Source of the DNA: a bacterium HR28
Lineage (GTDB): Bacteria > Chloroflexota > Chloroflexia > Thermomicrobiales > Thermomicrobiaceae
NCBI GenBank assembly: GCA_002898255.1
Contig: BEIE01000005.1
Location: forward strand, 62,001 to 126,000
Direction: 5' to 3'
DNA length: 64,000 nt
The notes below the pieces were generated by a model, which worked only from the letters and a program-made list of their open reading frames with translations, did no database searches and was not told the DNA's origin. Shown here piece by piece: positions 37,099 to 42,442 of the stretch; positions within the stretch are counted from its first letter, which is position 1, and every line of letters begins with the position of its first letter. The translations under genes and the position numbers were made by a program.

Positions 37099-37285
37099 GA
37101 CGAAGGGGACCAAAGTCCCCGTCGCCACGCGGGCCGATCGCCGAAGGAGGGCGATCACAGTTCGACCGGGGCCGAGACCGACCGAACTGGGTGCGGGTCG
37201 TTCTGAGGGGGCGCGATCCCGGTGCGGGATCGCGGAAGAGGGCAGTTAGAGGAGGTGCCTGGCCTCACCCGACGGCGGGGTGAGG
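37099..37285 (-). ncRNA. chain of five hairpins in the regulator's 3' UTR
   Basis: Perfect stems at 37099-37123 (GGGGAC/GTCCCC with a shorter outer arm), 37136-37156 (GATCGCC/GGCGATC), 37158-37189 (CAGTTCG/CGAACTG), 37212-37234 (CGCGATCCC/GGGATCGCG) and 37263-37285 (CCTCACCC/GGGTGAGG, straddling the gene's stop). With the terminator they make six hairpins in 224 bases. They could protect the transcript or be a structured RNA. Confidence 0.5.
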
Positions 37286-38461
37286 TGGCTTGTCCTCGGC
37301 CAGCAGCGACCGACCCGCGGCGTGCGGTGATGATACCGCACGCGAACCGTTTGAGTTGTCTCGCTCGGTCGCGCGAACGTCGACCGAACCGATCCGCTCC
37401 AGCTCTTCGGCAATCTGCCGAAGACGCTGGGAGTTGATCGCGTAGTACTTCATCCCGTTGGCAGGCCGCACGGTGACGATCCCCGCGGCCTCGAGCATCG
37501 CCAGGTGACGCGAGACTGCTGACTGGCTGATGCCCAACATGCCAACGATCTCTTGAGCGTACCGTTCGCCGTTGCGCAGAAGCTCGATGATACGCAGCCG
37601 CGTCCCGTCGCCGAGTGCCCGGAGACCGGGCAGAAGATCGGGTGAGATCACTGAGCCTTCCGCTGGCTGCGTCGCCGCGCTGGTGCGCTGGCAGTTGAAG
37701 TAGAGGATCAGTTCCGGCGGGTACAGGATGAATTGCACAAAGTTTCCCAGGTAATAGGACGGGCTGAAAGTTACCCGCTCGACGCGCGGGAGCGCCAGCT
37801 GCACTTCGTCCGGCAAGCGATGGCCACTCAGTTCCTCAAAGGCGTTCGCCACGCTTGAGAAGGTTGTCGCCCGCGCTTGCCGTACTGCCCGCCGCATGAC
37901 CGGCAAGGCACGCTCGAATTCCGCCGCGTAGAGCTCCCGCCAGAACCGCTCCAGCAAGCGAACGGTCCGCTCCTTGAGCTGTTCAGGTGCAAGCACGAGC
38001 CGGACCACCTCGTCCACATCCGCCCGCGTGATACCGGGCTCAAAGAACGCCCGCCACACAGCCGGATCGTCCGACTCGGGGGGCACCTCGAGTGCCCCGC
38101 GATCGAGGTAGACCCGCAACATGGCTTGAATTGCCATGCTACGGTAGGCCCAGGCCGGTAGGCGCTTGAGGTGAGCCACGTACTCCTCGAACCCTGCCTC
38201 ACGGTGTTCGGGCCGGAACGGATCAAACGACATCAGCAACTCTTCAACGTAGTACAGAAGCCGGCCCGAAAACCCGAGCAGCGTGTCGAGATCGTGTTCC
38301 CATTCGGCTCCGAGCGCTTTTCGCGCATCGACCAGCCAACGCTCGAACCGTCGCGCGTCCGTCGCTCGAAAGACCAGTGAGATCACTGAGGTCAAATCGA
38401 GCGGGACCGAAATCGCAATCTCGAGTTTGAGCGCCGGCCGGCCTACCAGCAGCTCACCCAT
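37265..38461 (-). CDS. ArsR-family regulator with large N-terminal domain
   Basis: A 398-residue protein. The C-terminal winged helix (about 275-350) has LRALGDGTRLRIIELLRNGERYAQEIVGMLGISQSAVSRHLAML, the ArsR fold. It lacks the CxC metal site, so a non-metal signal is more likely. An N-terminal helical domain of about 250 residues is of the DUF5937 type. It probably represses its own promoter, since a palindrome overlaps the -10, and may control the phenol hydroxylase operon downstream. The ATG at 38461 is chosen; its spacing to GAGGAGG is long (15). Confidence 0.75.
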   Translation of the reverse strand: MGELLVGRPALKLEIAISVPLDLTSVISLVFRATDARRFERWLVDARKALGAEWEHDLDTLLGFSGRLLYYVEELLMSFDPFRPEHREAGFEEYVAHLKRLPAWAYRSMAIQAMLRVYLDRGALEVPPESDDPAVWRAFFEPGITRADVDEVVRLVLAPEQLKERTVRLLERFWRELYAAEFERALPVMRRAVRQARATTFSSVANAFEELSGHRLPDEVQLALPRVERVTFSPSYYLGNFVQFILYPPELILYFNCQRTSAATQPAEGSVISPDLLPGLRALGDGTRLRIIELLRNGERYAQEIVGMLGISQSAVSRHLAMLEAAGIVTVRPANGMKYYAINSQRLRQIAEELERIGSVDVRATERDNSNGSRAVSSPHAAGRSLLAEDKPPHPAVG

Positions 38462-39229: not shown

Positions 39230-40786
39230 ATGGCGCAGACGGTTGCGACTCGGCCGTTTACCGGACAAGAGTACCTGGAAAGCCTACGCGATGGTCGGGA
39301 AGTCTACGTCTATGGTGAGCGGGTCAAGGATGTCACGACGCACCCGGCATTCCGTAATGCCGCACGGATGGTTGCCCGGCTCTACGATGCGCTTCATGAT
39401 CCGGCAAAAAAGGACATCCTGACCGTTGAGACCGATACCGGCAACGGCGGCTTTACTCATGCCTTCTTTCGCGCCCCACGCTCCGCCGAGGATCTGGTGA
39501 AGGCGCGTGACGCCATTGCCGAATGGGCTCGGATGACTTACGGCTGGCTTGGCCGCAGCCCAGACTACAAGGCAAGCTTCCTTGGTACTCTGGGTGCCAA
39601 TGCCCCCTTCTATGAACCTTTCAGCGAAAATGCCCGCCGCTGGTATCGGCTAGGACAAGAACGGGTTCTTTATTGGAACCACGCCATCGTTAATCCCCCG
39701 GTTGATCGCAACCGGCCGCCCGACGAGGTGGGCGATGTCTATATGCACGTTGAGCGAGAGACTGATGGTGGGATCTACGTTTCTGGTGCCAAGGTCGTGG
39801 CAACCGGATCAGTTCTCACCCACTACAACTTCATCGCTCACTACGGTCCGCTGCCGATCAAAGACAAAAAGTTTGCGCTCATCTTCACCGTCCCGATGGA
39901 CGCCCCGGGCGTGAAGCTGATTAGCCGTCCCAGCTATGAGTACACTGCTGCGGTCATGGGTAGCCCCTGGGACTATCCGCTCTCCAGCCGCCTGGATGAG
40001 AACGATGCGGTGTTCATTTTCGACAATGTGTTCGTTCCCTGGGAGAACGTCTTTGTCTACGGCGATGTCGACAAGGTGAATAACTTCTTCCCCGCCTCAG
40101 GCTTCATCCCACGCTTCACCTTGCATGGCTGTACCCGCTTTGCCGTCAAACTGGACTTTATCGCCGGAGTGTTGCTCAAGGCGATCGCAGCGACCGGCGT
40201 CAAGGAGTACCGCGGGGTGCAAGCTCAGGTCGGTGAAGTCATCGCTTGGCGCAACCTCTTCTGGGCCATCACTGACGCCATGTGCCGTAATCCGATTCCC
40301 TGGACCGATGGTTACGTCCATCCCAACCTTGAGTACGGGATGGCCTATCGAGTCCTTGCTCCCACGGCGTGGTCTCGCGTCCGCCAGATCATCCTGGACA
40401 ACGTCGCGAGCGGGCTGGTCTATCTCCCCAGCCACGCGCTCGACTTCAAGAATCCCGCGGAGCGTCCCTACCTTGAGAAGTACGTCCGCGGGACGGGCAT
40501 GGACGCCCATGATCGCGTCAAGCTCATGAAGCTTCTCTACGACTCCACGATCAGCGAGTTCGCTGGTCGCCACGAGCTCTACGAACGCAACTATGCGGGT
40601 AACCACGAGAACATCCGGTTGGAGACCTTACTCGTGGCCGAAGCCGTCGGGACGGCCGAGCGAATGCGCGGGTTCGCGGAGCAGTGCATGGCCGAATACG
40701 ACCTCGACGGCTGGCTGGCACCGGACTTGATCAACAACGACGACGTGTCTTGGGTACTGAGGCGGTTCCGTGAACTACAGGGGTGA
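39230..40786 (+). CDS. 4-hydroxyphenylacetate 3-hydroxylase-type flavin monooxygenase
   Basis: HpaB/PvcC family: uses FADH2 and oxygen to hydroxylate a phenol ortho to its hydroxyl group, giving a catechol. The 518-residue protein has the acyl-CoA-dehydrogenase-like fold of the family, with [28 protein letters not shown] and [16 protein letters not shown]. The ATG at 39230 is preceded by GGAGG. It needs a flavin reductase (HpaC), and none is in the window. It is followed by an extradiol dioxygenase and a tautomerase gene, so a meta-cleavage pathway is likely. The exact phenol is unknown. Confidence 0.86.
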
Positions 40787-40801
40787 TGTACGGGAACATC
40801 G

Positions 40802-40843
40802 GACCGGACAGGCGGTCTTGGCGGGTCTCCCGTTTGTCCGGTC
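40802..40843 (+). promoter_or_regulatory. hairpin A with conserved loop
   Basis: A 14-bp stem (GACCGGACA/TGTCCGGTC, then two G-U and three G-C pairs) closing the 14-nt loop TCTTGGCGGGTCTC. It lies 16 bases past the hydroxylase stop. A second hairpin with nearly the same loop lies 108 bases on. Confidence 0.7.
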
Positions 40844-40950
40844 TGGTTCCCAAGGAGGTTCGAGGCCGAACGACGGGATCGGCACCCTAAGGGCGGGATC
40901 GCCCTGGTCAGAGTGTCGTCGGCATGAAGGCGACATCGACTGACAACGCG

Positions 40951-40992
40951 GATCAGGCGGGCAGTCTCGGCGGGTCTCCTGCACGCCTGATC
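40951..40992 (+). promoter_or_regulatory. hairpin B with conserved loop
   Basis: A 14-position stem (GATCAGGCG/CGCCTGATC, one mismatch, then GCAG/CTGC) closing TCTCGGCGGGTCTC. The loop differs from hairpin A by one base, while the stems differ in sequence and keep pairing. It sits about 98 bases before the dioxygenase start. Confidence 0.7.
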
Positions 40993-41089
40993 ATGGGAGG
41001 TGAGAAAACCGGGAGCGGGCTCGGTATCCATGGTCGAGGGCTTCGTTTCGCATGGAAGAAGATGCTGTGGCACAACGGGAGGGAGTCCG

Positions 41090-42085
41090 ATGAGCACAAA
41101 CGGTTATCCTGAACCCATCTTCGACGTCGCTCAGCTGGCTCATGTCGAGATCTATACACCCGACATGGACGGCACACTCTGGTTCTTCAAGGAACTCATT
41201 GGGCTCGAGGAGACAGAGCGACACGGTGATTCAGTCTATCTCCGTGCTTACGAAGATTGGTACCACCATACCCTCAAAGTGACCAAGCGCGAAAAGCCTG
41301 GGCTGGGGCATGTCGCCTGGCGCACCACCTCACCGCAGGCCCTCGAGCGGCGCGTGAAGGCCATCGAGGAAGCAGGCCTTGGTGACGGGTGGATCGAGGG
41401 CGACCGTGGCCATGGTCGGGCCTATCGTTTCCACACGCCTGACGGCCATCCGATGGAGCTCCTCTGGGACGTCGAGTACTACAAGACACCCGCTGAGGCA
41501 AAGACAAAGCTTCTGAACCGCCCCCAGCGTCGGCCACTGCGCGGCGTTCCCGTGCGCCGTATTGACCACGTGAATCTCCTGGCCAGTGACGTAACCCAGA
41601 ACAAGCAGTTCCTCATGGATGTGCTTGGTTTCCGTCTGCGCGAGAATATCATCCTCAACAACGGTCGTGAGGCAGGCGCGTGGCTCTCGGTCAGTCCGCT
41701 GGTCCACGAGATCGCGTTTATGATGGACCAGGCGGGTGGCAAGGGACGCCTCCATCACGTCTGCTATTGGTACGGTTACGTCCAGCATCTCTCCGATATC
41801 GCCGACATCTTCAGTGAGGTTGGGATTAAGATTGAGGCTGGCCCCGGGAAGCACGGCATCTCCCAGGCATACTTCATGTATGTCATCGAGCCAGGTGGCA
41901 ATCGTGTGGAACTCTTCGGCGACGCCGGATACTTGATCTTCGATCCCGCCTGGCAACCGATCACCTGGCGCGAAGAAGAGCTCGACAAGGGAATCATCTG
42001 GTTCGGTTCGCCCTTGCCGGCCGAGTTCTTCATCTATGGCACGCCGCCGGTTGAGGCTGCAGAGCCCGCCCGCGCCGACGACTGA
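41090..42085 (+). CDS. extradiol catechol 2,3-dioxygenase
   Basis: Vicinal-oxygen-chelate ring-cleavage enzyme: opens a catechol next to a hydroxyl group with Fe(II) and oxygen. The 331-residue protein has two VOC modules. Metal ligands in the C-terminal half appear to be His160 (RIDHVNLL), His222 or 223 (LHHVCYWYG) and Glu274 ([10 protein letters not shown]), the 2-His-1-Glu set of type I extradiol dioxygenases. The ATG at 41090 follows GGGAGGGAG. It sits 303 bases after the hydroxylase, with two hairpins between. Confidence 0.87.
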
Positions 42086-42106
42086 GTGCTCCAGTGTGAA
42101 CGCTGG

Positions 42107-42140
42107 CCCGCTCACCCGCACAAAAACGGGTGAGCGGGCG
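42107..42140 (+). terminator. hairpin after the dioxygenase gene
   Basis: A 13-bp perfect stem GCCCGCTCACCCG/CGGGTGAGCGGGC, followed by GGCTTTCC. It lies 22 bases past the dioxygenase stop and before the tautomerase gene; partial read-through would be needed for co-expression. Confidence 0.6.
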
Positions 42141-42229
42141 GCTTTCCTCCTGCGCCCAGTTGCGCTACAGTGAGATCTGCCACCCCAGTGAGGGGGTACT
42201 TCGCCATCGCACACCGGAGGGTATGTCAG

Positions 42230-42442
42230 ATGCCGATGTTGGAGATCATAGTCGCGCGTGCGGAGCCGCTCATGCTCGAGCAAAAGCGGGCATTTGCACG
42301 AGAAGCAGTCGAAATCTTCCGGACAGTCCTCGGTACGCCACCAGGCCGCTTGCGCCTGGCGTTTTACGAACTCCGCCCTGAAGACAGCCTCGGCCTTCTG
42401 GAAGAACCTGACCCGCCGCCTCAGCCCACCTCGGACGGATAA
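42230..42442 (+). CDS. 4-oxalocrotonate tautomerase-family enzyme
   Basis: A 70-residue protein that begins Met-Pro, so Pro1 would be the catalytic base after Met removal. The family isomerises 2-hydroxymuconate in meta-cleavage pathways, matching the hydroxylase and extradiol dioxygenase upstream. The IIVARAEPLMLEQKRAFAREAVEIF pattern fits. GGAGGG lies upstream of the ATG at 42230 at a slightly long distance. Confidence 0.72.
   Translation: MPMLEIIVARAEPLMLEQKRAFAREAVEIFRTVLGTPPGRLRLAFYELRPEDSLGLLEEPDPPPQPTSDG

Follow-up and report, generated by a model that had tools for sequence, protein, structure and literature searches.

A candidate cis-acting structured RNA at the cistron junction of an aromatic hydroxylase/catechol 2,3-dioxygenase operon in Thermomicrobiaceae

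In bacterium HR28, two genes of aromatic catabolism are separated by a 303-nt gap (40787-41089), and this study asked what the gap holds and whether it acts as RNA. The window, that is, the whole stretch of DNA analysed, comprises 64,000 nucleotides of contig BEIE01000005.1 (positions 62,001 to 126,000), and all coordinates are those of the window. A sequence-only reading had placed twin hairpins here, between a hydroxylase and a dioxygenase gene, and had taken their conserved loop and covarying stems as the mark of a selected RNA element. Pfam and TIGR models applied to both neighbours bore out the placement:

39230-40786 (+): upstream gene, flavin-dependent aromatic hydroxylase of the HpaB/phenol hydroxylase PheA type (Pfam HpaB_N and HpaB; stop codon TGA at 40784-40786)
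41090-42085 (+): downstream gene, extradiol catechol 2,3-dioxygenase of the PheB type (TIGR03211, 362 bits, above the 320-bit cutoff; Pfam Glyoxalase)
42104-42141 (+): long, short-looped hairpin that lies 19 nt past the dioxygenase gene

Thermophilic phenol degraders typically have a phenol hydroxylase and a catechol 2,3-dioxygenase (PheA/PheB) as a two-gene pair. The hydroxylase scored 723 bits against the 4-hydroxyphenylacetate-specific model TIGR02310, under its 885-bit cutoff, and its substrate is therefore left unassigned. The hairpin at 42104-42141 probably marks the end of the two-gene operon; the next ORF (42230-42442) is Tautomerase-like. Upstream of the operon, on the minus strand, lies an ArsR-type HTH regulator with a long N-terminal region (37265-38461), a candidate regulator of the pathway. 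Also on the minus strand, 35978-36241 matches the Bacterial large signal recognition particle RNA (Rfam RF01854, 187 bits), and the ORFs listed there are spurious.

The twin hairpins were found where they had been claimed, at 40802-40843 and 40951-40992. The arms of the first (40802-40815/40830-40843) pair at all 14 positions, two of them as G-T, and those of the second (40951-40964/40979-40992) at 13 of 14. Several paired positions are unlike in the two stems; the 14-nt loops, TCTTGGCGGGTCTC in hairpin 1 and TCTCGGCGGGTCTC in hairpin 2, differ by a single base, as the near-common loop of the sequence-only reading had implied. Compared with its own shuffles, hairpin 1 folds with a z of -3.85 (0 of 200 as good); hairpin 2 alone is weaker (z -1.85, 9 of 200). 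Outside the gap, the 3.1-Mb genome has the loop 14-mer at just two sites, both without stems, one of which is malic-enzyme coding sequence by its reading.

The element proved to be longer than the hairpins, since a GGAGG box and a further core follow each of them. Its order is P1 (the twin hairpins), GGAGG, the conserved core GCCGR-N5-GGGR-TCGGCACCC (P2), and a small hairpin, P3. A third small hairpin, GGGCG-GGAT-CGCCC, had also been reported between the twins; it is present there and corresponds to P3 of the first copy. In addition, an outer helix, P0, stretches hairpin 1 nearly to the upstream stop codon. The features of the gap are as follows:

40792-40797 (+): 5' arm of P0, copy 1, GGGAAC, paired with 40846-40851 in the predicted fold
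40802-40843 (+): P1 hairpin, copy 1, with a 14-bp stem and a 14-nt loop at 40816-40829 (model R1, 59.0 bits, E 1.8e-8)
40846-40851 (+): 3' arm of P0, copy 1, GTTCCC, from the same predicted fold
40854-40858 (+): GGAGG box, copy 1, in the spacer between P1 and P2 (invariant in 10 of 10 copies of a hand-anchored alignment)
40865-40887 (+): P2 core, copy 1, recognised by identity: GCCGA 40865-40869 with TCGGC 40879-40883, GGG 40875-40877 and ACCC 40884-40887
40891-40904 (+): P3 hairpin GGGCG-GGAT-CGCCC, copy 1 (six Thermomicrobium species, one compensatory pair)
40951-40992 (+): P1 hairpin, copy 2, with its loop at 40965-40978 (model R1, 58.7 bits)
40996-41000 (+): GGAGG, copy 2 (within a full-length match to model R2)
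40996-41029 (+): GGAGG together with the P2 core, copy 2: ACCGG 41008-41012, GGG 41017-41019, TCGGT 41021-41025 and ATCC 41026-41029
41077-41084 (+): Shine-Dalgarno-like GGGAGGGA of the dioxygenase gene (identical at -13 in seven genomes)

The P0/P1 stem starts 0-10 nt past the hydroxylase stop codon, is very stable, and with P0 counted in has up to about 20 bp. In most single-copy relatives an outer helix of unlike yet complementary sequence is predicted, with modest statistics. The P2 core offers two alternative pairings in nearly all copies, either GCCGA with TCGGC or GGG with CCC around TCGGCA (97.8% and 100% of cells paired). P3 is clear in first or single copies only. Two pseudoknots were considered and set aside. 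Pairing of GGGT in the P1 loop with the ACCC after P2 is possible in 83% of cells and shows zero compensatory change, leaving it unsupported; an H-type pseudoknot combining GCCGA/TCGGC with GGG/CCC would have 1 nt to cross the first helix and is, by inference, sterically unlikely. A leader peptide or small ORF was also rejected, as the eight gaps share no common small ORF and their length differences are not multiples of three.

A stem of this kind between two cistrons might be a transcription attenuator, or an unusual terminator without a U-tract, that lowers transcription of the dioxygenase gene. It is long and GC-rich, and comparable short-loop stems end other units in the window. However, the terminator scan was negative at both P1 and P3, no T-run follows, and the loops have 14 nt, whereas those of the likely terminators and other long GC-rich intergenic stems of the window have about 3-10 nt; an intrinsic terminator is rejected on these grounds. 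Nor does a terminator require a conserved loop or P2, and attenuation is accordingly a very unlikely explanation.

Orthologous gaps were gathered by searches with the gap DNA (BLASTN) and with the dioxygenase. The closest relative, Thermomicrobium sp. CFH 73360 (G003), has two copies of the element; the Thermomicrobium genomes SKYB23 (G004), HRbin27 (G006), SKW109 (G002) and G001 have one. The sister genus is represented by Thermomicrobiaceae bacterium Tumba.bins.21 (G016) and Thermalbibacter longus (G013), and carries the element in weaker form. A P1 hairpin with a 14-nt loop is present in all these relatives save T. longus, whose version is plausible but weak, with an inner stem of 5 bp and a loop of 14 nt; this genome was excluded from every pair count.

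The gap lengths indicate how the twins arose. The four Thermomicrobium genomes with one copy have gaps of 153-161 nt, against 303/304 nt in the window genome and Thermomicrobium sp. CFH 73360; the excess is about as long as the distance from the start of one hairpin to the start of the next, 149 nt. Moreover, model R2, which was built from first or single copies only, detects copy 2 at full length (40951-41046, 48.2 bits, E 3.4e-6), GGAGG and P2-like core included. On both grounds, the twins are best explained by tandem duplication of the whole element or gap of about 150 nt, rather than as two hairpins that evolved independently. The P1 of copy 2 is identical at 42 of 42 positions in the two genomes, and the fourfold sites of the two are 74% identical. 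Its P2 pairing is kept in the window genome through a compensatory change and has a mismatch in Thermomicrobium sp. CFH 73360; its P3 is unrecognisable in the window genome. Because of the P2 mismatch and the lost P3, copy 2 may be partly degenerate. A duplication with P1 preserved would amount to a natural experiment on the dosage of a control element.

Covariation was strongest in P1. In a gap-free alignment of nine segments, 95.5% of cells were paired and 9 of 14 pairs had altered on both sides; the covariation score was 0.67 versus 0.26 in shuffles, none of 500 shuffles was as good, and slid controls were far lower. These segments were centred by hand on the loop, which favours the right register but cannot create compensatory changes. 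An unsupervised RNAalifold run on the six first or single copies returned P1, P2 and P3. The nine-copy model alignment, which is biased to its own structure and unreliable in its P3 counts for copy 2 and Tumba.bins.21, had 93% of cells paired, and 0 of 500 shuffles reached any of its measures. P2 is nearly invariant and thus weakly tested: one pair had altered on both sides, in the copy-2 sequences, and a further double change seen by eye in T. longus (GCCCG/TGGGC) was left uncounted. P3 showed one compensatory pair in six copies. Mismatches over P1-P3 comprised 17 G-T and 1 A-C, which is consistent with selection acting on the plus-strand RNA, that of the operon strand. With nine copies from seven genomes in two genera, and with the loop kept in relatives rather than belonging to unrelated repeats, the earlier claim of a selected RNA element is supported.

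The same data bear on the possibility that the gap contains a palindromic DNA operator or a dispersed repeat. The arms do form an inverted repeat, but they diverge with compensation around a conserved spacer, the reverse of the operator pattern, and the mismatches are strand-asymmetric, G-T and not A-C. No copy at another locus was found in any genome, and the repeat family that the sequence-only reading had offered as an option is not supported, since the model matches this locus alone in each genome. An explanation at the DNA level is therefore highly improbable.

The distribution of the element is narrow. It is carried by seven or eight genomes of hot-spring bacteria of the Thermomicrobium group, and in seven of them it lies between the same two genes, with no second locus in any. 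Covariance searches, which had been suggested along with the original claim, gave significant matches at the syntenic locus only, in Thermomicrobiaceae. Among 61 genomes of the order, R1 gave E <1e-4 at this locus alone, in seven genomes, and the next matches (E 0.016 and weaker) fell at the noise level of about 30 bits. R2 matched six Thermomicrobium genomes only among 158 genomes of the class, and scored 26 bits on the syntenic locus of Tumba.bins.21 when given it directly. Among 400 genomes of the phylum, R1 matched within the genus only. The order, class and phylum searches thus found no copy beyond Thermomicrobiaceae, under strict filters in the large searches that could miss divergent versions. 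Four BLASTN matches in more distant relatives (L009-L012) were short, fell in unrelated, apparently coding sequence, and were attributed to chance. Nor was the element found in the corresponding gaps of Thermus, Chloroflexus and Bacillota; as Thermus and Chloroflexus have the gene pair without it, the element is dispensable to the pathway. One Thermomicrobium genome with the gene pair (G005) lacks the element; its gap has unrelated sequence and its dioxygenase match (L021/L049) has one TAA inside its range, so that the regulated operon may have decayed or been replaced in this species. Dioxygenase paralogues of about 48% identity in several genomes (L042; G000:C7:5308-6267) have one TGA inside the stretch that matches, which is probably the stop codon of the gene itself, close to where the match ends. 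Searches of Rfam 15 with the window copy and six relatives gave nothing at gathering score and nothing credible at permissive E, and no paper on the element was found in the literature. Judged from these comparisons of sequence, its identity as a selected RNA that is narrowly distributed and apparently undescribed is well supported.

Conservation was compared as mean pairwise identity over the six Thermomicrobium copies. P1 is 67% identical in its loop and 60% in its stem; P2 reaches 89% in its 5' arm, 87% in GGG(R), and 100% in TCGGC and ACCC; P3 is at 80% and the linkers at 33-42%. Fourfold sites of the dioxygenase gene, the neutral reference, average 53%, so that the conservation of the P2 core (87-100%) is well in excess of what neutrality predicts. 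The P1 loop is moderately conserved overall: four genomes share it almost unchanged, it has diverged further in SKW109 and SKYB23, and its length is 14 nt in 9 of 9 scored copies, sister genus included.

These values weigh on a simpler explanation, in which the hairpin is purely structural, a decay barrier or RNase processing site of the malE-malF type without a partner for its loop, and the identity of loop and core reflects recent ancestry. A stable stem directly past the upstream stop codon, between co-oriented cistrons and as long as about 20 bp with P0, is what such a barrier would look like, and an unrelated hairpin with a short loop occupies the equivalent place in Thermus thermophilus. 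However, recent ancestry does not readily account for two motifs (TCGGC and ACCC) that are invariant in six species while fourfold sites and linkers have diverged, or for a loop length held constant into the sister genus, and a plain stabiliser needs neither a conserved loop nor a P2 core. We regard it as rather unlikely.

Another alternative is an orphan metabolite riboswitch, present as a tandem pair in two species, which would respond to an aromatic compound, either substrate or product, and regulate the catechol 2,3-dioxygenase cistron, with P2 and GGG/CCC as its alternative states. In line with this, the core is highly conserved and either unpaired or doubly pairable, both pairings being possible in nearly all copies; the element lies upstream of a catabolic gene at one locus per genome; and tandem copies are common among riboswitches (PMC9481103). 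On the other hand, the GGG/CCC pairing shows no covariation to test, no Rfam class matches, the distribution is very narrow, and the site is inside an operon and not in a 5' leader. A consistent expression platform is also missing, with no terminator at P1 or P3 and a ribosome site that the element does not consistently pair. In predicted folds, the dioxygenase ribosome site pairs mostly locally, with the start of the coding region, so that no simple translational switch is visible. TCTCC in the loop was considered as an anti-Shine-Dalgarno sequence: by eye, several genomes allow it to pair with GGAGG or with the ribosome site of the dioxygenase gene, the sister genus does not, the folds do not support it, and it was rejected. 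No sigma-70-like promoter was found inside the gap, in what is a weak test. A riboswitch in this sense is an improbable outcome, about on a par with the plain barrier. Less probable still is a new riboswitch-like class within the operon, tandem in two species, that would sense an intermediate or cofactor of aromatic catabolism and rebalance the hydroxylase and the ring-cleavage enzyme against catechol build-up.

With the riboswitch and the plain decay barrier as its leading rivals, most weight is placed on a structured RNA, so far undescribed and acting in cis, within the polycistronic mRNA of this operon in Thermomicrobiaceae, which would act at the cistron junction to set the ratio of the two enzymes; we give this about an even chance. 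Because the stems covary while key bases of loop and core are fixed, it is probably a hitherto undescribed element that controls the balance between the two enzymes. Presumably it is co-transcribed with both genes and acts post-transcriptionally at their junction. Starting right behind the hydroxylase stop codon, the long P0/P1 stem would divide the message in two; it would shield the upstream half from decay at its 3' side or stop ribosomes from running through and reinitiating. The relative output of the genes is probably set through processing, stability or reinitiation. A plain barrier would need neither the conserved loop nor the core, which suggests specific recognition: a protein, nuclease or small molecule would recognise the 14-nt loop and the GGG.TCGGCACCC core and set the amount of dioxygenase relative to hydroxylase. 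To our knowledge, few structured regulatory RNAs have been described from Chloroflexota or Thermomicrobia, and those inside catabolic operons have rarely been examined. If confirmed, this small RNA would be a tractable system, set between two enzymes whose imbalance would lead to catechol accumulating.

Among known systems, tandem and orphan riboswitches resemble the element in their size of about 100 nt, conserved core, covarying stems, single locus upstream of a metabolic gene, and tandem copies in some species (PMC9481103); the element differs in being intercistronic, restricted to one bacterial family, and without an Rfam match, known ligand or expression platform. The Thermus thermophilus pair TTH_RS11255-TTH_RS11260 on plasmid pTT27 matches in gene order and orientation, but its 210-nt gap lacks the element and has the unrelated short-loop hairpin after the first stop codon. 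Intergenic structures are known to protect the upstream cistron, as in malE-malF, or the downstream one, as in papBA, and a structure after a stop codon can block 3'-to-5' decay or ribosome run-through, as described for malE-malF, papBA and puf (PMC5927463). These three stem-loops share with the element an intercistronic place, a stable stem and a likely role in unequal expression (PMC5927463). In contrast to them, the element described here extends over about 100 nt and three helices, combines a conserved 14-nt loop with a separate core, and has been duplicated in tandem.
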